64,000 nucleotides of DNA, from assembly GCA_001769195.1 (NCBI GenBank), contig MEOK01000005.1:121194-185193 (forward strand). Direction: 5' to 3'. Below are positions 4,530 through 21,836 of the stretch, in pieces. Numbering within the stretch: position 1 is the stretch's first letter; each line of letters begins with the position of its first letter. This DNA is from Bacteroidetes bacterium GWF2_40_14. GTDB taxonomy: Bacteria > Bacteroidota > Bacteroidia > Bacteroidales > UBA932. The notes beneath the pieces were generated by a model. It searched no databases. It saw only the letters and a program-made list of their open reading frames with translations, and was not told where the DNA came from. A program made the translations under genes and the position numbers.

Positions 4530-4613
4530 TTCAGTTGAATTTAAGCTAATATAAGAATAAAAAAAATACCTCCTCAATTAATGTGAATTGCAGAAGATAT
4601 TATTTTGTATTTG

Positions 4614-4686
4614 TGGTCCCGGTGGGGATCGAACCCACGACCCCAACATTAAGAGTGTCGTGCTCTACCAACTGAGCTACAGAACC
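4614..4686 (-). tRNA. tRNA-Lys (anticodon CTT)
   Basis: On the minus strand a 73-base cloverleaf folds with acceptor GGTTCTG/CGGGACC, discriminator A, D-arm GCTCAGTTGGTAGAGC, anticodon stem CGACA/TGTTG and loop CTCTTAA (anticodon CTT). The T-arm is GTGGG-TTCGATC-CCCAC. CCA is not encoded. Confidence 0.96.
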
Positions 4687-9671: not shown

Positions 9672-10316
9672 ATGTCTATAAAAGTTCTGATTGCAGATGA
9701 CAATCAGTTATTCAGGGAGATACTGGCGAAACTTTTCAAACACGCAAACGAAATCGAGATTGTTGCTCAAGCAGAAAATGGACTTGAAGTATTGGATAAG
9801 GTAGGGCAATACCAACCTGATATAGTATTAATGGATATTGCAATGCCTCATCTGAATGGCATCGATACATCAATTGCCTTAGTTAAACAGTTCCCCGGAA
9901 TTAAAATAATTGCGTTAACAGCATATGACGATAAAACCAACATAAAAGGCATGCTTGGAGCTGGAGTCAGGGGATACCTGCTTAAGAGTTGCAAATATGA
10001 TCAGTTGGTGGACGCAATAATCCAGGTCAATAACGAAAAAAAATATATAAGCCCGGAAGTTGCAGAGATCATCATTCAGGATTATCTGGGACAGGACTCT
10101 ACGGATAAAATCAGGCATCCAAAGCTTACCGAGAGGGAATCCGAAGTTCTGACCTTACTCGCTGAGGGGAAAACAATCAGGGAGATTTCAGAGTTACTTT
10201 TCATTAGTGTTAAAACGGTAGGTAGCCACAAAGAAAATATTTTTGAAAAACTGGAATTTGAGAATATGACTCAGCTGATTAAATTTGCTCTTAAAAACGG
10301 TATAGTCTCCTTATAA
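9672..10316 (+). CDS. NarL/FixJ-type response regulator (REC-LuxR HTH), orphan
   Basis: This two-domain cytoplasmic regulator has 214 residues. The receiver domain (about 1-120) has the acidic pair Asp9-Asp10, the phospho-acceptor Asp55 in VLMDIAMP, and a conserved Lys in YLLKSC. The C-terminal LuxR-type helix-turn-helix (about 150-210) includes LTERESEVLTLLAEGKTIREI and the recognition-helix pattern VKTVGSHKENIFEKL. No kinase gene is adjacent. The stop lies only ten bases before the ATG of the first small secreted protein. The regulator therefore probably heads the same transcript as the chaperone, usher-like and GldML genes and may control them. This is an inference from spacing. Confidence 0.92.
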   Translation: MSIKVLIADDNQLFREILAKLFKHANEIEIVAQAENGLEVLDKVGQYQPDIVLMDIAMPHLNGIDTSIALVKQFPGIKIIALTAYDDKTNIKGMLGAGVRGYLLKSCKYDQLVDAIIQVNNEKKYISPEVAEIIIQDYLGQDSTDKIRHPKLTERESEVLTLLAEGKTIREISELLFISVKTVGSHKENIFEKLEFENMTQLIKFALKNGIVSL

Positions 10317-10326
10317 ATTGATACTT

Positions 10327-10887
10327 ATGAAAAAGTTGTGTTTTTACGGACTTATTTTATTATCGTTTTTTCTGTCTACTAAGGGGATTATTTCTGCTCA
10401 AGTTAAAAATATTGTTGAGATGCCTATAGTGTTTTCCATCCCGGCAGTTGCTCTTGTTGACTTTGCCGGATCGGATAAACGCATCACTTTTATTCCGGGG
10501 AAAGGAGCAGAACAGATTATCACCCCCTCAACACTTGATAAAACCTGGATCAACTATTCTTCTATTGTAGATGGTAAATATACAAACAGTATCTCTGTTC
10601 AGATAACTTCAGGGAATTTACCAGCTGATATCAGGATAAAACTGGAGATAGGTGAAGACGCCGGTGCAGGAGCAGGGACAATGGGGAAATCAACAGGAAT
10701 TACCGCCCTTTCAATGTACCCGCGAGAGATTATCACTGGTATTGGCAGTTGTTATACAGGAAGAGGAACAAAAAAGGGTCATCAGTTAACCTATTCATGG
10801 GAGTGGTTGCCCCCTTATGATTTTGACCGCTCATCCATTGATAGTCTTGAAATATCGGTAACGTATACTTTAACCGCTTCCAGATAA
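10327..10887 (+). CDS. Small secreted pilin-like protein, paralogue 1 of 4
   Basis: From the ATG at 10327 the product is 186 residues with a signal peptide (KKLCFYGLILLSFFLS, cleavage likely after SAQ). I do not recognise a named family. The mature part is predicted to be beta-rich and shares two motifs with three other proteins of this locus: SGNLP, and 44 residues later IGSCYTGRGTKKGHQL. It also shares WINYS and a GKSTG segment with paralogue 4 at 15780, so these two form a subtype. The C-terminus ends in an alternating strand (LEISVTYTLTASR), like the last strand of fimbrial subunits. It starts ten bases after the response regulator gene. A structural subunit of a surface appendage is the most economical idea, but it is inferred. 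Confidence 0.8.
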   Translation: MKKLCFYGLILLSFFLSTKGIISAQVKNIVEMPIVFSIPAVALVDFAGSDKRITFIPGKGAEQIITPSTLDKTWINYSSIVDGKYTNSISVQITSGNLPADIRIKLEIGEDAGAGAGTMGKSTGITALSMYPREIITGIGSCYTGRGTKKGHQLTYSWEWLPPYDFDRSSIDSLEISVTYTLTASR

Positions 10888-10894
10888 ATGCCGG

Positions 10895-10916
10895 ATTGCT
10901 GACAGAAGTCAGCAAT
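10895..10916 (+). other. Perfect hairpin between paralogues 1 and 2
   Basis: ATTGCTGAC, loop AGAA, then GTCAGCAAT form a nine-base-pair perfect stem with a tetraloop eight bases after the stop of paralogue 1. No T-run follows, so it is not a standard intrinsic terminator. It could be an mRNA stabiliser or processing site that sets subunit stoichiometry. Confidence 0.55.
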
Positions 10917-10989
10917 TATGAACTGAAAAATCAGTCATTCACACTCAAGTTTCAGTAAAAATCCATATGTATAGAGAACTTTTTTCCTT

Positions 10990-10997
10990 TACATTTG
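10990..10997 (+). promoter_or_regulatory. Candidate internal -7 box before paralogue 2
   Basis: TACATTTG fits TAnnTTTG and lies 17 bases before the ATG at 11015. No clear -33 TTTG is seen, so this is a weak call. Confidence 0.3.
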
Positions 10998-11014
10998 AAA
11001 ATGGATTTTTTATT

Positions 11015-11587
11015 ATGAGTAAATCAAATTTTACGATATTATTGATATTGATCTCTGTTTTATCGCCCTGTCATGCAGTTTCGCAAACTACAGCGGGTGC
11101 ACAGATTACCCTTCAAATACAGGATTACTGTCTGATGGATACAAATGGCGCCCCAGTCAATTTGTCGTTGACCTCATCAGTTGCCGGTGCACCAATATCT
11201 ACGGTATCGAATTCGGATATGTTTGTCAGGGTGTCATCTGTAACACCGGGTGGCACTTATCGTAAGATTACTGCCCGCCTAACCAGCGGAACGGTCCCTT
11301 CAGGAACCAGACTGACACTAGAAGCGGCATTGAGTACCAATACAAATGGAGCAGGGCGTTGCGGAGTTGCTTCTCCTTTAATGATTCTAAGCGCAATAGA
11401 TCAGACACTTATACATGGCATAGGTAGCTATTACACAGGTACCGGAATCACTGATGGATATAAGCTGACATATACCTGGGGGCCATACAACCCGACAACG
11501 GATTATCATCTTTTAAATGCCACAGTTGTACCAGCCACACTTACCATCATGTTGACAATATCAGCACCCGATGGAAACAACATCTAG
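11015..11587 (+). CDS. Small secreted pilin-like protein, paralogue 2 of 4
   Basis: The ATG at 11015 gives 190 residues beginning with a good signal peptide (SKSNFTILLILISVLSP, cleavage likely after AVSQ). The upstream ATG at 10967 would bury this signal and is disfavoured. The mature protein is rich in Thr, Ser and Gly. It carries the locus motifs SGTVP and, 45 residues later, IGSYYTGTGITDGYKL. It has a Cys-containing segment (GAGRCG) between the motifs, and another Cys near the N-terminus (QDYC), so a disulphide is possible. The C-terminal strand LTIMLTIS precedes a short tail. It lacks the WINYS element and so groups with paralogue 3. Function unknown; a subunit role is inferred. Confidence 0.8.
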   Translation: MSKSNFTILLILISVLSPCHAVSQTTAGAQITLQIQDYCLMDTNGAPVNLSLTSSVAGAPISTVSNSDMFVRVSSVTPGGTYRKITARLTSGTVPSGTRLTLEAALSTNTNGAGRCGVASPLMILSAIDQTLIHGIGSYYTGTGITDGYKLTYTWGPYNPTTDYHLLNATVVPATLTIMLTISAPDGNNI

Positions 11588-11665
11588 GCAAATTCCTTAC
11601 TCAAAATCAGTATTTGAGATGTTATTTTCAGGAAAAGGCTGATGTTTCACAGGTTTCTTTCAGGC

Positions 11666-11673
11666 TATATTTG
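11666..11673 (+). promoter_or_regulatory. Candidate internal -7 box before paralogue 3
   Basis: TATATTTG fits TAnnTTTG exactly, 28 bases upstream of the ATG at 11702 in a 114-base gap. A separate promoter would suit a major subunit, but no clear -33 box is present. Confidence 0.4.
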
Positions 11674-11701
11674 AACTTGAATAAATAAATATCCTAATTT
11701 C

Positions 11702-12256
11702 ATGAAAAACGCACTACTACTTTTAGGTATCACTTTAATAGTGACTCTTTCTGGTCCTAAAGTCATGGGTCAGACTGCAACGAATAATCTCTCTCTGGGT
11801 ATGCCGGAGGTATTGTTGGTGAAAAGCAACGCATCATCAATCAATCTTACATTATCGCCCCAGGAGGCAGGTCTTGCCGTTCAGCCTAGTCTCTCAGATT
11901 CTACAGCAAGAGTACTTATATCGTCTGTGGTTTCAGGTGAACAGACCAGAACTCTAACTGCATCGGTTACCAGTGGATCCGTACCCGCCGGAACCTACCT
12001 GAAACTTGTCGCTTTGAGTCCTAACGCCTCATTTGTCGGAACTGCCGGAACATTGGGTGCCCAGGTAGAACTTGGAGCGGTTGCCCAAACCATAGTCAGT
12101 GCCATTGGTACCTGCTATTCTGGTACAGCAGCTGATGACGGATATGGATTAAAATATACATTTGGTATTCCTGCTGCATCAGGAACATATGGATCCATCA
12201 GGGCCACAGCCGGTGCAGCAGTAACAGTAACACTTACACTTTCAGCAGGAAGCTAA
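11702..12256 (+). CDS. Small secreted pilin-like protein, paralogue 3 of 4
   Basis: This 184-residue protein has a signal peptide (KNALLLLGITLIVTLSG, cleavage likely after VMGQ). Its composition is strongly skewed to Ala, Ser, Thr, Gly, Val and Leu, like a structural fibre subunit. It has the locus motifs SGSVP and, 44 residues later, IGTCYSGTAADDGYGL, and ends in the strand VTVTLTLS. It has the largest upstream gap (114 bases) and its own candidate promoter. If the locus builds a fibre, this is the best candidate for the major subunit. The chaperone-like gene follows after 11 bases. The family is not one I can name, and the role is inferred. Confidence 0.8.
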   Translation: MKNALLLLGITLIVTLSGPKVMGQTATNNLSLGMPEVLLVKSNASSINLTLSPQEAGLAVQPSLSDSTARVLISSVVSGEQTRTLTASVTSGSVPAGTYLKLVALSPNASFVGTAGTLGAQVELGAVAQTIVSAIGTCYSGTAADDGYGLKYTFGIPAASGTYGSIRATAGAAVTVTLTLSAGS

Positions 12257-12267
12257 TAATAAATAAA

Positions 12268-13059
12268 ATGAAAATTTGCAGAATATTACTATTTCTTTCA
12301 CTTTTTAGTTTTTTATCCCTTCGTTCCAATGCCTCTGTAGAAGTACTAGGCAGTTTGAAGCATGTTCATAATGGTAAACCCGGAGATGTGATAAGGGGTG
12401 AGATCAAGATACAGAACAACGATGATACCGATCAGGAGGTAAAGATATATCAGACCGATTTATTATATAATCTTCAGGAAAATACATTTTATGATGAACC
12501 GGGTAGTCATAAACGCTCAAATGCGCCATGGATTCAGTTCAGTCCTAAAACGTTGATTTTAAAAGCTAAAGAGGTGAGGGTCATTCAATACGAGATTAAA
12601 TTGCCTCAAACAGATACTCTTAAGGGAACATTTTGGAGTGTTCTCATGGTGGAAGGAGTGGTTCCGATTGATCCAAACCAAAAAGGTGCTCTCAGTATCA
12701 GAACGGTGACTCGTTATGCAATTCAGGTCATAAATGAATTTGCAGATAAAGGGAAAGGACTGTTGAAATTTATGGAGCCTACATTAATAACCGAAGGTAA
12801 TAAGCTATTTCTGGCTGTAGATCTTGTAAACAATGGAGAACATTATATCGCTCCGGAGGTTTCAATTGAGGTTTTCGATGAAACAGGTACATCCATAAAA
12901 GTACTGACAGCATCCAAAAAAGGACTTTATCCAACCACATCAACGCGATTCAATCTGGATCTAGAGGGACTCCCATCGAAAAAGAACTACCAACTGATGA
13001 TTGTAGCGGCCGGTCAGAATAATGATGTTTTCGGACTAGAATATACACTCTTCTTTTAG
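12268..13059 (+). CDS. PapD-like periplasmic chaperone candidate
   Basis: This exported protein has 263 residues, a signal peptide (KICRILLFLSLFSFLSL, cleavage near SNA) and two predicted immunoglobulin-like halves (about 22-140 and 145-263). That is the size and layout of fimbrial periplasmic chaperones. The first half shows the spacing of the PapD type: a GDVIRGEIKIQNND strand, then PWIQFSPKTLILKAKEVRVIQ, then GTFWSVLMVEG. This matches the family pattern of W-I-x-x-x-P, L-x-P-x-x and then strands. I see sequence resemblance only, and no alignment was run. It lies between the small secreted proteins and the usher-like barrel gene, with a seven-base gap to the latter. A Bacteroidota Ig-fold protein of another role is the alternative. 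Confidence 0.65.
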   Translation: MKICRILLFLSLFSFLSLRSNASVEVLGSLKHVHNGKPGDVIRGEIKIQNNDDTDQEVKIYQTDLLYNLQENTFYDEPGSHKRSNAPWIQFSPKTLILKAKEVRVIQYEIKLPQTDTLKGTFWSVLMVEGVVPIDPNQKGALSIRTVTRYAIQVINEFADKGKGLLKFMEPTLITEGNKLFLAVDLVNNGEHYIAPEVSIEVFDETGTSIKVLTASKKGLYPTTSTRFNLDLEGLPSKKNYQLMIVAAGQNNDVFGLEYTLFF

Positions 13060-13066
13060 AACATGA

Positions 13067-15763
13067 ATGTTTAAAGTTGTAACGACTTTATTTCTTTTCT
13101 CGCTTTTAATCAAATCACCACAACCTGGCCCTGGTGACCTGGAGGTCAGGTTGATTAATGACAAAAGGAAAGAAATGGCTGCCGGGTTTACATCGAATGT
13201 CCTCATTATGCTGTTAAATAATACAGACACTATTAAGGAGGTCAATTTAAAACTAAACACATCAAGTTATAACTGGAAAAAAATTGAGAATGATTCGACT
13301 ATTCAGATTCAAAAAAGAAGTAGCTTAAATAAGATCATTAGCATATACATCCCGGAAAATACTAGAGCAGGGGACTATTCCATTGAACTTATGGCATTCG
13401 ACGCTAATGGTAACCGCTTTGGTAACGTCAGTATTCCCATCTATGTCAAGCCGAGGTATGAAATAATCGTAGAAAAACAAAAAGCTCCAACCTATTTATT
13501 TTCTGATGACAGTCTTGGAGTCGTATTCCGGATACGCAATTTGTCGAATATCGACGTTATGGTAACTTCTTCAATAATTAATGGAAGAATAATTGAGAAC
13601 CGGAATTTCAAGATTCCAATGGATTCATCAATTCTAACTAAAGTTTCTGTGTCTGTGCCAAAAAATCTCAGCTACTATACTAAACAAAACATCTCTTTAT
13701 CGGCTTCTGTCAATGATAAGCCGGAAGTAGAGAGTTCTGCCTCCTACCTGTTTGACATCATACCTTCAGGTAAGGTGAAATTCGATGGATATAACCGATT
13801 TCCGGTTAAGGTTACCGCAATATTTGCTACTAATAACCGTATGGAAAAGAGAGATTATGGAATAATGCTTGATATAGTGGGCAGTGGACAGATAAGTGAG
13901 AAAAAAAACCGAAGACTTGAATTTCATCTTCGAGGCCCTGACCGTGGTGGAAATCCAACTCTGGGCTTAAATGATGAATATTATCTTAATTATAGCTCGT
14001 CCAGTACAAGAATTTCAATTGGAGACAATAATTATCGTTTGAGTGATCTGACAGAATCTTCAAGAAGTGGCAGAGGGATAGAACTCCAGCAAAGTTTTGG
14101 TAAATTCTCGGTAGGATCGTTCTTCCACTTTCCAAGATACTATCCGGGAATCAAACATATCTTAGCCATTTACACAGATTACAAAATCAATCAGAAAATG
14201 AGATTTTCTGCTGGTTATCTAAATAAATCCAATTCAAAAAATGAGATTTCCAACCTGTTATCCATATCAGGAATCATTAATCCGTTTTCCTGGGGAAATA
14301 CAGAATTCGAACTGGCTATGGGGCAAAAGCCAGGTCAAATGACCAAAGCATACAAGTTCTCCGTAAATATAAACAAATCAATATTTGCATCACATTTTAA
14401 TATCACTAAGGCAGATCCGGGTTTTTCCGGTTATGTATCAAACTCTAGCTATCTCTCATCCGGAATAACTGCAAATCTGAAAAAAAAGATGAGCATATCC
14501 TTGAACTACGATATAAATCGGTCAAATCTGAATCTGGATACCATATACTCGAACGCCCCTTACAGTAAAAACATCAACCTGATGACAAACTACAGGATGA
14601 GCGCGAATAATACGGTCGGATTTGGAGCATATATAATTACAATGGAAGACCGTAGTCCAAATCCTCTCTTCAATTACAAAAAATACAATGGAAGATTATC
14701 TTTTCAGAGTAAATTCAGGAGGATCAGTATTAATTTTCAGGCAGAACTGGGTAAAATCATAAATAATCTTGGGGTTAAAAATGGAGATTTGACTGATTTT
14801 TACAATGGTAGCTTTTTTTTGCGGTATAGGTTCAACGAATCTGTATCGGCAACCGGGTTTCTGAATTATCAAGGTGGTCAACAATATCTTATCACCGGTA
14901 CACAACGGTTCTATTATGGTGGAACACTAAATGCAAGCTTCAGGAAAAAAACTCAGATTTCGTTTGATTACAGGAATAACTATGAGATGAAAGAGTATTA
15001 TCGTGACAGAAGTCTATTGTCATTACAGATACATCAGAAAATTAATTCTAATCATGAATTTGAACTGGGAGCAAATTACAATTTGTTAAAGAATTCATTG
15101 AATAAAAAGGAGCTTAGTATGCAAATCCGATACACATATACCATTAATATTCCCTTGTCAAAGAAAAAAGATGTAGGGAGTCTTACCGGTAAAGTCATAA
15201 ATATGGGTGTCGGACAAGTTAATGGCGTAATATTCAACCTCAATGGTGATATTACGATGACGGACAAGAACGGGAATTTTGAATTTCCGATGGTGAAAGT
15301 GGGAACCTATATACTGGCAATGGATGAATCGAGTACCGGACTAAATGCCATTGCATGTGTACCCGGCCCCTACATGATAAAGATAGAACCCGGAAGGGAG
15401 ACACAGTTTGAGATATCATTGACGCGAGCAGCACGAATCAAGGGACGTCTGGTTATAAAGGAAGATGAAAAGAGTGGTAAGAAAGGATTCTTTCCTATTA
15501 AGGAGGAGATTGAAAATTTAATAGTAGAAGCATCGAATGGAACGGAAACATTCAGAACATTAACCTTTAGGGACGGTACATTCAATTTTGATGACCTCAG
15601 ACCCGGAAGTTGGCACATTAAAATTTATCCGAATGGTATTCCACAAGGATATATACTAGACAAAGACCAGTTTACTCTCGTTCTGACTCTTGGAAAGGAG
15701 GAAAATCTCGATGTGATTATTTTTAAAAAAGCCAGGGAAATAAAGCTCCAGCATACGTTTTAA
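13067..15763 (+). CDS. Usher-like outer-membrane beta-barrel protein candidate
   Basis: This 898-residue exported protein has a signal peptide at residues 1-20. Two Ig/NEW3-like domains follow (about 24-130 and 130-240), containing NNTDTIKEVNLKL and RIRNLSNIDVMV. A long central region (about 240-700) is made of alternating hydrophobic strands rich in Tyr, Asn and Ser with tight turns, as in a large beta-barrel. The C-terminal 200 residues hold two prealbumin/carboxypeptidase-regulatory-like domains, the first with the G-x-V, T-D-x-x-G-x-F-x-F and G-x-Y pattern. Size and domain order resemble fimbrial ushers, which also combine a barrel with small beta domains. I cannot identify the usher family itself. 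Its position after a chaperone-like gene supports a secretion or assembly pore. A T9SS-unrelated surface barrel is the alternative. Confidence 0.6.
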   Translation: MFKVVTTLFLFSLLIKSPQPGPGDLEVRLINDKRKEMAAGFTSNVLIMLLNNTDTIKEVNLKLNTSSYNWKKIENDSTIQIQKRSSLNKIISIYIPENTRAGDYSIELMAFDANGNRFGNVSIPIYVKPRYEIIVEKQKAPTYLFSDDSLGVVFRIRNLSNIDVMVTSSIINGRIIENRNFKIPMDSSILTKVSVSVPKNLSYYTKQNISLSASVNDKPEVESSASYLFDIIPSGKVKFDGYNRFPVKVTAIFATNNRMEKRDYGIMLDIVGSGQISEKKNRRLEFHLRGPDRGGNPTLGLNDEYYLNYSSSSTRISIGDNNYRLSDLTESSRSGRGIELQQSFGKFSVGSFFHFPRYYPGIKHILAIYTDYKINQKMRFSAGYLNKSNSKNEISNLLSISGIINPFSWGNTEFELAMGQKPGQMTKAYKFSVNINKSIFASHFNITKADPGFSGYVSNSSYLSSGITANLKKKMSISLNYDINRSNLNLDTIYSNAPYSKNINLMTNYRMSANNTVGFGAYIITMEDRSPNPLFNYKKYNGRLSFQSKFRRISINFQAELGKIINNLGVKNGDLTDFYNGSFFLRYRFNESVSATGFLNYQGGQQYLITGTQRFYYGGTLNASFRKKTQISFDYRNNYEMKEYYRDRSLLSLQIHQKINSNHEFELGANYNLLKNSLNKKELSMQIRYTYTINIPLSKKKDVGSLTGKVINMGVGQVNGVIFNLNGDITMTDKNGNFEFPMVKVGTYILAMDESSTGLNAIACVPGPYMIKIEPGRETQFEISLTRAARIKGRLVIKEDEKSGKKGFFPIKEEIENLIVEASNGTETFRTLTFRDGTFNFDDLRPGSWHIKIYPNGIPQGYILDKDQFTLVLTLGKEENLDVIIFKKAREIKLQHTF

Positions 15764-15779
15764 ATCTATTTAATCTAAA

Positions 15780-16283
15780 ATGAAAATAATAAGTAATTTA
15801 TCCATGTCAATTGTTTTATCGCTAATATTTACAGTGGGTATGGCTCAAAACAACAATAACCTTTATGTTACGGACCGAAGCTCGGTAATTATAGATGTTT
15901 CAGCAATAATCTCAGCAGGTATCTATTCAGAGAAGATTGTCGATAATACACAATGGATAAACTATTCTTTAGATGTCAGCCCTTCTGAACCATTATCATC
16001 CATCTCAGTATCGATTGCCTCAGGCACTGTTCCAAATGGGATCGAACTCTATATACAGGCAGGCAGTCACATTGGATCCGGACGTGGCCAAACCGGCAGA
16101 CCCACAGGAAAGTTCAGGATAGACAATGTTCCTAAGGTATTGATTAATGATATAGGAAAAAGTTATACCGGTAATGGAAAGAACCAGGGACATCAATTGA
16201 CATTTTCTATGGTGATTACAAACTTTTCTCTTCTTCAGCCTGGTGACTATACATTATACATCCTTTACACACTTAAACAATAA
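15780..16283 (+). CDS. Small secreted pilin-like protein, paralogue 4 of 4
   Basis: The 167-residue product has a signal peptide (KIISNLSMSIVLSLIFTVG, cleavage likely after MAQ). It carries the locus motifs SGTVP and, 44 residues later, IGKSYTGNGKNQGHQL, plus WINYS and GRPTG shared with paralogue 1. It ends in a strand YTLYILYTLKQ. It is separated from the other three paralogues by the chaperone-like and usher-like genes and lies 11 bases before the GldM homologue. It could therefore be the subunit that contacts the motor or anchors the structure. That placement argument is speculative. No named family is recognised. Confidence 0.78.
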   Translation: MKIISNLSMSIVLSLIFTVGMAQNNNNLYVTDRSSVIIDVSAIISAGIYSEKIVDNTQWINYSLDVSPSEPLSSISVSIASGTVPNGIELYIQAGSHIGSGRGQTGRPTGKFRIDNVPKVLINDIGKSYTGNGKNQGHQLTFSMVITNFSLLQPGDYTLYILYTLKQ

Positions 16284-16294
16284 TCAGTCAGACT

Positions 16295-17902
16295 ATGGCA
16301 TCAAAGAAGGAGACCCCAAGGCAGAAGATGATAGGTATGATGTATCTGGTTTTGACAGCACTATTGGCATTAAACGTATCAAAGGATATACTAAATGCAT
16401 TTTCTGTTGTTAATGACAGTGTACTGCTTACTAATGAGAGCTTTGAGCAGAAACGCGTAGGGGTATATTCAGATTTTGAAAAAAATTATTCTCTTAATCA
16501 AATTGAAGTCGGGCCATTCTGGAGCAAAGCTAAAGAGGCTATGCAATTATCTGCGAAAATGGTTGGATATATTGAGAACCTGCGGGATGAATTAATATCA
16601 GAAACAGAACAGGTCCCTTTGGATTCTGTTAGAAAAATACCCCTTCTTAAACTGAAAAAAAGGGACGATTATACGAGCCCCACAAATTTTCTGATTGGGG
16701 GTCAGGAGGACGGATCTAAAGGAAGAGCCAGAGAATTAAAGAATAAGATAATAGAATACCGAGACAATATGCTTAATCTGATAGATCAAAAATACCGGGA
16801 TCAGATAAAACTTGGTTTGGAAACAGAGGGCGATTTTTTTGATGCCACCGGCCAAAAGCAAAGTTGGGAATTTCATTATTTCTATGACATTCCTCTGGCA
16901 GCAGATATTCCTATCCTTAACAAATTTATTTCTGAAGTGAATAATGCCGAACTTGAAGTTGTCAATAGCCTTCTCTATGCAATAAGTGCCGACGATTTCA
17001 AGTATGACCGTATAGATGCCAAGGTGTTGCCGAGATCAAATTACCTGTTTGCAGGCGACCAATATGAGGCGGAAGTGATAGTTGCAGCCTACGATACAAG
17101 TCATAGTCCAAATGTTTATCTTATGCGTGGCGTAGATTCACTGCCGGTTTCCCGGAAGAGTGAGGCAACACTCATATCAAGTCCCGATGGCCGGATAAAT
17201 TTCAAATTTCCGACAAATTATGCAGGAATTGAAAAATATGCGGGCTTTGTCAGTGTAGTGAACAGTTCAGGCAATGAAAACACTTACCATTTCAATAGCG
17301 AATATTTTGTTGCCAAACCATCCCTCACGGTTTCTGCCACTAATATGAATGTGCTTTATATTGGAGTTAACAATCCTTTATCAATATCAGTTTCCGGAAT
17401 TCCGGGTGAAAATATCTATCCAACCATTTCTTGTGGTACACTAAAGCAAAATACGGGTAAAAGTGGATGGACGGCAATGGTGCCGGTCGATTGCAAGCAG
17501 GCTACCATTGAGGTTTCTGTCAAGATGAATGGTAATATTAAACGAATGGGATCTGAGACCTTCAGAGTAAAAAAACTTCCCGATCCTGTTCCATGCATTG
17601 CAAGTAAAAAAGATGGCTTTATAAGCCGCGAATCACTCATATCAGCGGGAACAATTATCCCCAGGATGCCGGATGATTTTGAATTCGACTATTCTTTTCA
17701 GATAATTTCATTCAAAATGACAATGCAAAGAGGGTTCAATGTATATCACTACTATTCACAAGGCAGTAAACTTACAGAAGAGATGGTTAAGCAAATAAGA
17801 AATACAAACCGAGGACAGAGTATTATTTTTGAAGATATCGTTGCCAGGGGTCCTGACGGATCAGACAGGATACTCTCTCCGCTTATCATAACTATAAACT
17901 AA
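16295..17902 (+). CDS. GldM-like motor protein outside a T9SS cluster
   Basis: This 535-residue homologue of GldM/PorM is a dimeric inner-membrane protein whose periplasmic rod transmits proton-driven motion in type 9 secretion and gliding. The N-terminus is near-canonical: KETPRQKMIGMMYLVLTALL, with Arg9 at the position reported to pair with the GldL glutamate. One TM helix spans about residues 13-32. The rest is periplasmic: a helical part to about 230, then beta domains to the C-terminus. The length is close to F. johnsoniae GldM (about 513). The usual neighbours GldK and GldN are absent. It sits between a small secreted protein (11-base gap) and the GldL homologue (27-base gap), in reverse of the usual gldL-gldM order. 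It is likely a paralogue serving the upstream system. Confidence 0.88.
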   Translation: MASKKETPRQKMIGMMYLVLTALLALNVSKDILNAFSVVNDSVLLTNESFEQKRVGVYSDFEKNYSLNQIEVGPFWSKAKEAMQLSAKMVGYIENLRDELISETEQVPLDSVRKIPLLKLKKRDDYTSPTNFLIGGQEDGSKGRARELKNKIIEYRDNMLNLIDQKYRDQIKLGLETEGDFFDATGQKQSWEFHYFYDIPLAADIPILNKFISEVNNAELEVVNSLLYAISADDFKYDRIDAKVLPRSNYLFAGDQYEAEVIVAAYDTSHSPNVYLMRGVDSLPVSRKSEATLISSPDGRINFKFPTNYAGIEKYAGFVSVVNSSGNENTYHFNSEYFVAKPSLTVSATNMNVLYIGVNNPLSISVSGIPGENIYPTISCGTLKQNTGKSGWTAMVPVDCKQATIEVSVKMNGNIKRMGSETFRVKKLPDPVPCIASKKDGFISRESLISAGTIIPRMPDDFEFDYSFQIISFKMTMQRGFNVYHYYSQGSKLTEEMVKQIRNTNRGQSIIFEDIVARGPDGSDRILSPLIITIN

Positions 17903-17929
17903 ATACTGAAAAAAATAAAAATCAGCTCT

Positions 17930-18718
17930 ATGAACATAAAAGAATTGACGCAAAGCAAAAGCTTTAAAAAAATGTTGGCAAAATTGTATGGTTTTGGTGC
18001 ATCTGTAGTTATACTCGGAGCACTGTTTAAAATCCAGCACTGGACGGGGGCAGGTTTTATGCTCTCTGCCGGTCTCATTACAGAGGCGATAATCTTCATA
18101 TTTTATGCTTTTGATACAGACTCAGAAGAAGAGAACGCCCCGGAATCCGACGGACAGACAGAATTATCAGAAAGGAGAATTACCGGTGGAGGTAGTGGTT
18201 CTGTGGCACTGGTTAAGTTTGATGAAATGCTTCATAAATATGAAATAACCCCGGAAATGTTTCATTGTCTTGGAACTGGTATAAAAAAGCTTGGAGAAGC
18301 AACAATTAATATAAATTCCATGGGCGATGTTTCTGCTGCATCAATCAAATATATGAATACAATAAAGACTGCAGACGAATCACTGGATAAACTTGCTAAA
18401 TCATATCAGAATGCTATGATTAAAGCGATAAACAAGACTGAATTCAAATACAGGAACATAACTGATTCTTTATCGGTTCTAGAGTCCGGAGTTAAATCAT
18501 ACCAGCAACAGCTGGAGACACTCAATAAAAACCTGTCGGCCCTCAACACGGTGTATATGCTTCATAAAGCAGGAGCGGATGACTATCTGAAAGATATGGC
18601 AGAATCTGCATGTGACACTAAAAAATACCGTGAGCAGATAAATAATCTTAACGACAATCTGGCCGCATTGAACAATGTTTATGGCAATATGCTTGCTGCA
18701 ATGAATGTTAGAAAGTGA
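17930..18718 (+). CDS. GldL-like motor protein
   Basis: This 262-residue GldL/PorL homologue is the inner-membrane stator-like subunit that forms the proton channel around GldM. It has two TM helices. The first contains KLYGFGASVVILGALFKI. The second contains GLITEAIIFIFYAFD, with Glu52 matching the essential glutamate of GldL (Glu49 in F. johnsoniae). The HWTGAGFML turn between them is also conserved. The cytoplasmic C-terminus (about 95-262) is long and helical, with coiled-coil-like QQQLETLNKNLSALN repeats. It is longer than typical GldL of about 215 residues. It is the last gene of the locus; 11 bases after its stop the convergent GNAT gene ends. Conserved catalytic residues suggest an active motor. 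Confidence 0.9.
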   Translation: MNIKELTQSKSFKKMLAKLYGFGASVVILGALFKIQHWTGAGFMLSAGLITEAIIFIFYAFDTDSEEENAPESDGQTELSERRITGGGSGSVALVKFDEMLHKYEITPEMFHCLGTGIKKLGEATININSMGDVSAASIKYMNTIKTADESLDKLAKSYQNAMIKAINKTEFKYRNITDSLSVLESGVKSYQQQLETLNKNLSALNTVYMLHKAGADDYLKDMAESACDTKKYREQINNLNDNLAALNNVYGNMLAAMNVRK

Positions 18719-19491: not shown

Positions 19492-20814
19492 ATGATTATT
19501 AGTTTTTCTGTTAAAAATTTCAAGACCTTTAAAAATAAGGCCACAATTAGTTTGATTGCCAGCAATTACGATAAAGCTACAAGAGTAGAAGAAAATATTT
19601 TTAGTGATAATATTTTTGATTTAAAAATTCTAAAAAGCGCTGTTATCTATGGGGCAAATGCTAGTGGCAAGAGTAAGTTTCTAGAGGCTTTATTGTTTAT
19701 GAGAAGCTTTGTTATCGAAAGCTCAAAAGAGACTCAAAAGGGAGATTTAATCTCTGTCGTTCCTTTTAAATTGAGCACGGAGAGTGAAAATGATAATACA
19801 GAATTTGAAATAGTATTCGAACAAAAAGATACAATATTCAGATATGGCTTTGAAGTTAACAAGAATTATGTTGTTGCTGAATGGTTGTATCAAAAACAAA
19901 AAATTAAAGAAGTTGAGTTATTTTACAGAGAGGGACAGGAATTTGATGTTCACAGACAGATGAGTAAAGCAGCAAAAGTTTCTAAGGAAGGCTTAGTGAG
20001 GGATAATGCTTTGTTCATCTCTGTTGCAGCTCAATTCAACGATGAAACTAGTATTGCAATTATTCAATGGTTCAAACAGTTGAGAACTTTATCTGGCCTG
20101 TTCGAAGAGAGCTATAAAGGATTTACATTAGGGAAGACAGAAGAGCCTATTCAAAAAAGTAGAATACTGGAGCTTTTAAAAGCTGCAGACCTTGGTATTG
20201 ATAATGTAGAACTTACTATTCTTGATGATAGTAATATTCCAAATGATGTACCTAAGGAACTTAGAGATAAATTGATTAAAGCAGTAAAAGATGGAGATAA
20301 GATTGTAAGCGATGTACTGATGTCACATAAAAAATTTGATTCTTCAGGGAAAGTTGTGGGAAATGTCTGCTTTTCAGTAGATGATGATGAATCAGCTGGA
20401 ACAAATAAATTTTTTGCATTGTCCGGTACTATTCTTGATGTTTTAGAAAATGGATATACGCTTATCATCGACGAGTTAGACTCAAAATTACATCCAAATC
20501 TTGTTTGTAAAATTGTTTCATTGTTTAATTCCAGAGAATTGAATAAAAAAAACGCGCAATTGATCTTTAACACCCATGATACAAATTTATTAAGCTCTGG
20601 ATTATTTAGGAGAGATCAAATCTGGTTCACCGAAAAAGATAAATATGGAGCTGCTTCTTTATATTCTTTAGCAGATTTTAAAGAACAAAGAGTGAGAAAA
20701 GAAGAAGCGTTTGAAGATAATTATATTAGAGGTAAGTATGGTGCTGTACCATATATGGGTTTATTCGACAACTTAATTGCTCAAAAAGTATTGCAAGATG
20801 AGAATGAAAAATAA
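19492..20814 (+). CDS. RloA-like AAA/ABC-type ATPase (defence-associated)
   Basis: This 440-residue ATPase is of the AAA_21/AAA_15 (SMC/ABC-like) type found with RloB. The N-terminus ISFSVKNFKTFKNK is typical. Walker A is GANASGKS at 54-61, Walker B is LIIDE at 324-328, and the switch His is in NTHDTN (His362). The protein appears complete. RloA-RloB pairs are named after restriction-linked ORFs and resemble the AriA-AriB (PARIS) arrangement of an ATPase with a Toprim-like effector, so an anti-phage role is plausible. The stop overlaps the start of the damaged rloB by 11-17 bases, showing translational coupling. With a broken partner it may be non-functional or decaying. Confidence 0.82.
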   Translation: MIISFSVKNFKTFKNKATISLIASNYDKATRVEENIFSDNIFDLKILKSAVIYGANASGKSKFLEALLFMRSFVIESSKETQKGDLISVVPFKLSTESENDNTEFEIVFEQKDTIFRYGFEVNKNYVVAEWLYQKQKIKEVELFYREGQEFDVHRQMSKAAKVSKEGLVRDNALFISVAAQFNDETSIAIIQWFKQLRTLSGLFEESYKGFTLGKTEEPIQKSRILELLKAADLGIDNVELTILDDSNIPNDVPKELRDKLIKAVKDGDKIVSDVLMSHKKFDSSGKVVGNVCFSVDDDESAGTNKFFALSGTILDVLENGYTLIIDELDSKLHPNLVCKIVSLFNSRELNKKNAQLIFNTHDTNLLSSGLFRRDQIWFTEKDKYGAASLYSLADFKEQRVRKEEAFEDNYIRGKYGAVPYMGLFDNLIAQKVLQDENEK

Positions 20815-21474
20815 GAAGCTCATACAGTTGAATAATAGACAAAAGCATAGAGCGTTATTAAGAAATGAGAGGAAGACTGAACCTGCTTTTGAAAGGGAGA
20901 AGCCTACTAAAAATGAAAAACCTAGAATATTGATTGTTTGTGAAGGAAAAAACACAGAACCATCTTATTTTAGACAGTTTAGACTATCTTCGGCAACTAT
21001 TGAGGCTATTGGTGAGGGGTTTAATACACTGTCACTTGTTAAAAAAGCAATAGAAATATCCCGGAAAAACCAGATAATCCAAGTCAAGTCTCAGACTTTA
21101 ATGATGCAATTATGCTTGCTAAGAAAAATGGATTTGGAGTAGCTTATTCGAACCAAGCTTTTGAATATTGGATTATATTGCATTTCAATGATCATCAAGG
21201 CGGTCCTATGGATAGGAGACAGTATGGGTATAAAATAAATGAGTATTTGGCGCAGTATTCAGTTTATTATGATTTCACCGGATCCAAATTAATTACTGAT
21301 GAGATTTTTGAATTGCTGGATGGGATAGATGAACAGACAAGAAAGAACAGGAAACGACTTGCAATTATAAGAGCAAAGCGTAATTATAAACTTTTTGACC
21401 ACATGAATCCTTCCGCAGAAGAGTCCTCAACCACTGTCTATAAACTGGTTGAAGAATTACTAAGATATTTGTAA
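20804..21474 (+). pseudogene. rloB-like gene, disrupted by frameshift and deletion
   Basis: The N-terminal part starts at an ATG at 20804 (or 20798) and carries the RloB hallmark ILIVCEGKNTEPSYF. It is readable to about 21060 (LVKKAIEIS), then runs into a stop in that frame at 21142. The C-terminal part continues in the -1 frame from about 21061 (PEKPDNPSQVSDFNDAI) through AFEYWIILHFND to the stop at 21474. Both parts match one protein of about 230 residues. RloB/Toprim-like relatives normally have a V-F-D-x-D acidic segment between these two parts, and I cannot find it in any frame here. A short non-triplet deletion that removed it explains both the frame change and the missing motif. The effector is probably inactive. 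Confidence 0.75.
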
Positions 21475-21762: not shown

Positions 21763-21774
21763 GTGATCCAGCTG
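21758..21774. repeat. Direct repeat of tRNA-Lys 3' end, copy 2
   Basis: This is the second copy of the 17-base direct repeat. It overlaps the 3' end of tRNA-Lys(TTT), which spans 21764-21836. Confidence 0.6.
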
Positions 21775-21836
21775 GGGCTCGAACCCAGGACCCCAACATT
21801 AAAAGTGTTGTGCTCTACCTGCTGAGCTACTGAATC
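21764..21836 (-). tRNA. tRNA-Lys (anticodon TTT)
   Basis: On the minus strand a 73-base cloverleaf is present with acceptor GATTCAG/CTGGATC, discriminator A and D-arm GCTCAGCAGGTAGAGC. The anticodon stem is CAACA/TGTTG with loop CTTTTAA (anticodon TTT), and the T-arm is CTGGG-TTCGAGC-CCCAG. No encoded CCA. Confidence 0.96.

Follow-up and report, generated by a model that had tools for sequence, protein, structure and literature searches.

Chaperone-usher assembly is, to our knowledge, held to need no energy source at the inner membrane, and we know of no GldLM described outside the type IX secretion system (T9SS) and gliding. In a 64,000-nucleotide stretch of Bacteroidetes bacterium GWF2_40_14 (contig MEOK01000005.1, positions 121,194-185,193, forward strand; hereafter the window), nine genes on one strand encode a regulator, three small predicted secreted proteins (s1, s2, s3), a chaperone-like protein, an usher-like barrel, a fourth small protein (s4), GldM and GldL. 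The combination of small proteins predicted to be secreted, predicted chaperone, usher-like barrel and GldLM relative in one cluster, found in some Bacteroidales, is new to the literature searched: in open-licence full texts, a scope outside which most subscription papers lie, no description of a GldM tied to an usher-like locus was found, nor does one occur in the parts consulted of PMC4793230, PMC9127263, PMC9389320, PMC12635249 and PMC8986121. The consulted part of a review names only T9SS and gliding as GldLM jobs (PMC9389320).

We propose, with moderate confidence, that the cluster builds a surface structure by a chaperone-usher-like route and that the barrel is driven, as predicted, by its own GldLM-type proton motor. 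The conserved gene set, the lack of detected T9SS parts in the GWF2_40_14 genome, the kept motor residues and the co-divergence of GldM with the barrel and the chaperone are direct observations. An earlier sequence-only reading had put forward such a joint system; its gene set proved to be conserved, and we infer the physical coupling and the job of the motor.

Conservation of the gene set

Searches with the barrel profile gave 16 loci in 15 genomes, and the order barrel-s4-GldM is kept in all of them; in all 14 loci that extend upstream of the barrel, it has the chaperone and one or more s-type genes before it. Near copies occur (L043-L046; L041 and L053), so the 16 loci are not 16 independent events. 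The chaperone profile, searched separately over 393 genomes of the order, had matches in 20, from which 19 regions were fetched, the GWF2_40_14 genome being left out. Chaperone, barrel, s4 and GldM were found together in seven of these, four on contigs already found and three new (L136, L138 and L139, the first two being near copies). Including the window, 20 distinct GldM-linked loci are known, with GldM directly after s4 in every one (L138 is cut inside GldM). The recurrence across genomes that the sequence-only reading had named as a check of its proposal is found, the same order being kept down to about 39-40% barrel identity, more than by chance. A homologue of the regulator adjoins 13 of the 20 clusters, often with a gene of about 500 aa that contains a receiver ahead of it; in three loci (L039, L047 and L053) the cluster has no such neighbour, and in four the contig is cut.

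Among the other chaperone-found regions, a GldM-less version of the pathway (L141-L146, considered below) continues in five of six cases with another small protein of 156-189 aa. The remaining six (L147-L152) hold a distant chaperone relative beside a 391-397 aa protein, with no barrel, and possibly represent another assembly system. Among the candidates scored, at least 109 barrel homologues were found (25-92% identity), of which 104 cover at least 93% of the barrel. When 60 relatives were searched, only the GWF2_40_14 genome gave a barrel match; none came from the 24 genomes of the same genus, from 11 more of the family or from 24 more of the order. The distribution of the barrel is accordingly read from the other searches.

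T9SS content of the genomes

Searches that were positive in T9SS genomes detected neither SprA nor GldN nor any T9SS sorting tail in the GWF2_40_14 genome (G000, 97.5% complete), and no GldM or GldL besides those of the locus. GldK, GldN and SprF-like proteins are absent from the nine locus genes; for GldK no genome-wide search was made. Over 60 genomes, GldM (above cut-off) and SprA occur together in 26 and GldM without SprA in the GWF2_40_14 genome only, the exceptions being SprA without GldM in one 61% complete genome and a sub-threshold GldM match in one more.

The comparison was extended to 16 locus genomes, namely the GWF2_40_14 genome and the 15 holding barrel-found loci. SprA is missing from two, GWF2_40_14 and G060 (1.9 Mb), each with a single GldM and a single GldL, both inside the locus; the remaining 14 carry SprA and a T9SS-type GldL-GldM pair. 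GldN is present in 13 and was not found in GWF2_40_14, G060 and G061, the T9SS contig of the last being just 3 kb long. Sorting tails (TIGR04183) number 0 in both SprA-less genomes and 39, 9 and at least 150 (150 scored of 484 candidates) in three T9SS genomes. Seventeen genomes hold the locus GldM and a second GldM, which is T9SS-type in the 14 with flanks read; G345, G408 and G135, checked for GldM, have two each. Because no SprA, GldN, sorting tail or other GldM or GldL was found in the GWF2_40_14 genome, the window locus is, judged by gene content, not a stray T9SS operon.

Other orphan GldM types were also encountered: L036 and L037 are second, divergent GldM-like genes with no GldL within 1.5 kb flanks, and further such matches lie in G042, G046, G051 and G052. 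In the genome of L049, a second GldL-GldM pair (L071, L094) sits on a 3.6 kb contig (G070:C38).

Phylogeny and residues of GldM and GldL

The trees are quick ones made without bootstrap, with long branches on several GldM-unlinked rows; support is given by the Shimodaira-Hasegawa-like approximate likelihood ratio test (SH-aLRT). In the tree of 17 locus and 37 T9SS GldMs, the former are a single clade (SH-aLRT 100) nested among the latter. The locus GldLs (4 rows) also form one clade (SH-aLRT 97), nearest to the T9SS GldL L056. A single branch (SH-aLRT 100) separates the 19 GldM-linked barrel rows from 6 unlinked ones (L052, whose reading frame is split, was omitted), and GldM-linked chaperones are likewise grouped (18 rows against 12 others, SH-aLRT 99), which suggests that GldM was gained once on the linked branch, or lost in the others.

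Residues of the motor are kept. GldM R9 and Y17 are invariant in the 17 locus and 37 T9SS rows, as is, in 4 locus and 40 T9SS rows, the glutamate of GldL transmembrane helix 2, which is E52 in the window and aligns with E49 of F. johnsoniae; the F. johnsoniae glutamate is essential (PMC8986121). At the GldL position aligned with E59, three of the four locus GldLs have Asp.

Of the 19 testable loci, four have GldL next to GldM, namely the window, L038, L040 and L042; L138, with its cut contig, was left out. In the 13 other barrel-found loci the two are not neighbours (L050 has just 286 bases beyond GldM), and neither are they in L136 and L139. Since both SprA-less genomes carry their own locus GldL and the other 14 of the 16 compared have a T9SS GldL-GldM pair, the loci with GldM only would borrow the T9SS ring; two T9SS genomes, G061 and G062, have a locus GldL too.

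In the tip domain D4 of GldM, Q478, R479, G480 and F481 are found in 19, 18, 19 and 19 of 19 locus rows, and N505, R506, G507 and Q508 in 19, 18, 19 and 19 (L138, cut, being omitted). Q478, R479, F481 and N505 are specific to the clade, position 481 being Gly in 39 of 45 T9SS rows. In P. gingivalis the tip of PorM, made up mostly of D4, has a predicted position between copies of PorN (PMC12635249). A conserved new tip fits a new partner for the locus GldM, although the enrichment of these residues is weak.

Co-divergence of GldM with the barrel and the chaperone

Distances between locus GldMs are most closely correlated with those of the chaperone (0.97, 15 loci), the barrel (0.96, 17) and s4 (0.92, 16), followed by s1 (0.85, 12), the regulator (0.75, 10) and s3 (0.63, 14). 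A paired test was performed on 12 genomes with both GldM types, two of 14 being dropped for a split barrel or a missing chaperone. Locus GldM and barrel gave r 0.985, and 0.956 with the T9SS GldM held constant; T9SS GldM and barrel gave 0.817, falling to 0.085 with the locus GldM held constant. The locus GldM therefore tracks the barrel more closely than the T9SS GldM from those genomes does.

Predicted structures of the barrel and the chaperone

The AlphaFold2 model of the barrel (predicted local distance difference test score 87.1) has two N-terminal immunoglobulin (Ig) domains, about 26 barrel strands and two C-terminal beta domains. Its six best Foldseek matches against the PDB are all FimD, in agreement with the usher fold expected by the sequence-only reading. 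In the VIA list the Mtr-complex barrel (6r2q chain B, which we take to be MtrB) ranks top, and several usher matches reach into the C-terminal domains. No usher (PF00577) match was found for the window barrel at E up to 1. The strand list of the model, taken alone, has no Ig-like insert between barrel strands that would mark a plug domain. The part of the barrel with the largest difference between linked and GldM-unlinked loci is the first Ig domain, with an identity of 0.47 within and 0.16 between, to which alignment error may contribute. LysM is a peptidoglycan binder, and its presence on four of the 109 barrel homologues (P0059, P0072, P0088, P0089) suggests that the barrel is probably held in place. 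The barrels of L136 and L138 have an additional N-terminal stretch with no Pfam match at E up to 0.001, and the barrel gene L052:9965-12693 falls into two successive open frames, through a frameshift or an assembly error.

The chaperone-like protein was modelled joined to s3 (the L052 homologue), and VIA matches span model residues 217-460. The best match is Enterococcus WxLIP (9i25, 9i1y) with pilus chaperones, the fold anticipated earlier, next; s3 is predicted to be a beta protein. No pilus-chaperone (PF00345) match was found in the Pfam and NCBIfam scan, and the sequence profiles of chaperone and s3 gave nothing real against the PDB (no match, and homing-endonuclease matches at E of at least 0.5). 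The labels "PapD-like" and "usher-like" of the sequence-only reading thus agree with the predicted folds and rest on them, since neither the 263-residue protein nor the barrel matches the corresponding family. For the WxLIP family (PF06030), the window chaperone scores 13.9 bits, under the curated cut-off of 27.3; with an E threshold of 0.1, 42 of 67 members of the chaperone family match it, the best at 3.3e-4. By prediction, a hairpin of WxLIP completes the sandwich of WxL (PMC10599100). The window chaperone has no hydrophobic C-terminal stretch. Membership of the small proteins in the WxL family was rejected, none of 62 having paired W-x-L motifs and six a single one. The locus hints at a link between Gram-positive WxLIP proteins and pilus chaperones.

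Proposed mechanism and alternative explanations

From their hydrophobic N-termini, s1-s4 would be exported to the periplasm, where the WxLIP/PapD-like protein may give a beta strand to the incomplete subunits; the precedent of WxLIP with WxL and the fold predicted for the protein suggest this step. The chaperone is then predicted to bring the subunits to the usher-like barrel, which would pass them to the surface. Fed by the proton gradient, the GldL ring would turn a GldM dimer spanning the periplasm, and GldM would do work on the barrel, most likely at its periplasmic Ig domains, pushing subunit transit or assembly. Powered export or assembly is favoured because GldM tracks the barrel and the chaperone most closely and because LysM suggests a fixed barrel. 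More tentatively, and slightly short of an even chance, the loci may form a new class, in which a Bacteroidota chaperone-usher-like pathway with a WxLIP-type chaperone captured a T9SS GldM once, rewired its tip to the export barrel, and borrows the T9SS GldL where a T9SS exists or has its own ring where it is absent.

Several results weigh against this proposal. Six of the 19 chaperone-found regions (L141-L146) have the order s-chaperone-barrel-s without GldM or GldL; these relatives lack a motor, so the motor may instead add force to a finished structure. The clade-specific D4 residues are weakly enriched (hypergeometric 0.055 against all T9SS and 0.019 against sister T9SS, control 0.10), and an unusual divergence of D4 was not borne out, identity within and between being 0.61 and 0.39 for the locus and 0.59 and 0.33 for the T9SS control. 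Co-divergence marks one inherited unit, not contact, and linkage or joint transfer could yield the same figures. The most serious alternative, unlikely as we hold it to be, is that the motor does not drive assembly and instead moves or rotates the completed surface structure, as GldLM moves gliding adhesins. The core without GldM in six loci means that export may be motor-free, and F. johnsoniae GldLM does both jobs, with GldL E59 needed for movement only (PMC8986121). Against this alternative, the residue aligned with E59 is Asp in three of four locus GldLs, the nine genes include no GldK, GldN or SprF-like protein, and LysM would tend to hold the barrel still.

We find it distinctly improbable that the barrel is another large pore, with the Ig and small proteins forming a WxL-like surface lattice and GldM serving as a spacer. 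The top VIA rank of the Mtr-complex barrel, the nearness of the chaperone to WxLIP and the missing usher and pilus-chaperone family matches speak for it; the FimD matches in the first six Foldseek ranks, the VIA usher matches extending into the C-terminal domains, the chaperone without hydrophobic C-terminal stretch and the small proteins without paired W-x-L speak against it, and the kept proton-channel residues are ill-suited to a mere spacer. Hardly credible is a displaced T9SS motor pair, lying by chance in an unrelated operon. Locus GldMs do nest inside the T9SS GldM tree and the locus GldL is closest to the T9SS GldL L056, but GldM is kept in place at all 16 barrel-found loci and follows the barrel more than T9SS GldM does, and 17 genomes hold it beside a second GldM (T9SS-type in the 14 read). 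A chance or T9SS-relic origin is likewise disfavoured by the lack of SprA, GldN and sorting tails in the GWF2_40_14 genome together with the barrel-GldM co-divergence. With GldLM, no detectable T9SS and a conserved usher-like operon, this genome offers a clear test case for whether an usher can be powered by a rotary motor; it also bears on what a GldM tip can grip and on how motors pass between envelope machines.

Gene layout and neighbouring genes

The locus (window 9672-18718; Table 1) has gaps of 1, 79, 114, 11, 7, 16, 11 and 27 bases in gene order. The open reading frame coordinates bear out the positions and common strand given by the sequence-only reading, which counted eight genes instead of nine; of its "mostly 7-27 base gaps", five of eight fall in this range and those of 1, 79 and 114 outside. 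Its GldM and GldL homologues score 345 bits (TIGR03517, curated NCBIfam cut-off 180) and 124.5 bits (TIGR03513, cut-off 68.3), and its response regulator is a NarL-type receiver-helix-turn-helix (HTH) protein. No Pfam or NCBIfam match was found for s1, s3 and s4 at E up to 1; the sole match of s2, whose actual start may be an ATG further inside, is a chance-level NCBIfam one (E 0.083), far under cut-off. Relatives have one to three copies of s3.

Table 1. Genes of the locus, with positions in the window.
Feature	Position	Strand	Basis or remark
NarL-type response regulator (receiver + LuxR HTH)	9672..10316	+	Pfam PF00072, PF00196
s1, small predicted secreted paralogue, 189 aa	10318..10887	+	hydrophobic N-terminus; order recurs
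s2, small predicted secreted paralogue, 206 aa as called	10967..11587	+	order recurs
s3, small predicted secreted paralogue, 184 aa	11702..12256	+	92 homologues
Exported two-Ig-domain protein, WxLIP/PapD-like, 263 aa	12268..13059	+	likely strand-donating chaperone, from the predicted fold
Usher-like outer-membrane barrel, 898 aa	13067..15763	+	predicted fold; family profiles silent
s4, small predicted secreted paralogue, 167 aa	15780..16283	+	sits between barrel and GldM
GldM/PorM homologue, motor shaft	16295..17902	+	TIGR03517; all four GldM Pfam domains
GldL/PorL homologue, proton-channel ring	17930..18718	+	TIGR03513

Downstream (window 19492-21474) lie an AbiLi-like ATPase gene and a gene like AbiLii/RloB that is broken up into two overlapping frames. 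The locus and this AbiL pair are flanked by two minus-strand tRNA-Lys genes (window 4613-4686 and 21763-21836), and, with no barrel match in the 24 same-genus genomes, arrival as an island is possible.

Comparison with known systems

Like the chaperone-usher pathway (FimC-FimD, PapD-PapC, archaic Csu), the locus combines in one operon a predicted two-Ig periplasmic protein, small secreted subunits and a large barrel, which carries C-terminal beta domains and has FimD as best Foldseek match. It differs in having no PF00577 or PF00345 match, in a barrel of about 26 strands (ushers have 24) with two N-terminal Ig domains and no plug domain seen in the model, and in an operon that includes a proton motor. 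With the WxL/WxLIP (csc) clusters of Gram-positive bacteria it shares the best fold match of the chaperone and the adjoining small secreted proteins, whereas its chaperone lacks the hydrophobic C-terminal stretch, its small proteins lack paired W-x-L, and it has an outer-membrane barrel and a motor. Compared with the Mtr-complex barrel, the locus barrel adds Ig and C-terminal beta domains, and no cytochrome family match was found among the nine genes. The motor resembles GldKLMN (PorKLMN) of T9SS and gliding, with GldM and GldL above curated cut-offs and motor residues kept; it differs in the order GldM-GldL instead of GldL-GldM, in the clade-specific residues of the GldM tip, in the lack of adjoining GldK and GldN, and in a genome in which SprA, GldN and sorting tails were not found. 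As with the 5:2 rotary motors (ExbBD-TonB, TolQR), a proton motor in the inner membrane would power work at the outer one, but its partner here would be an usher-like exporter.

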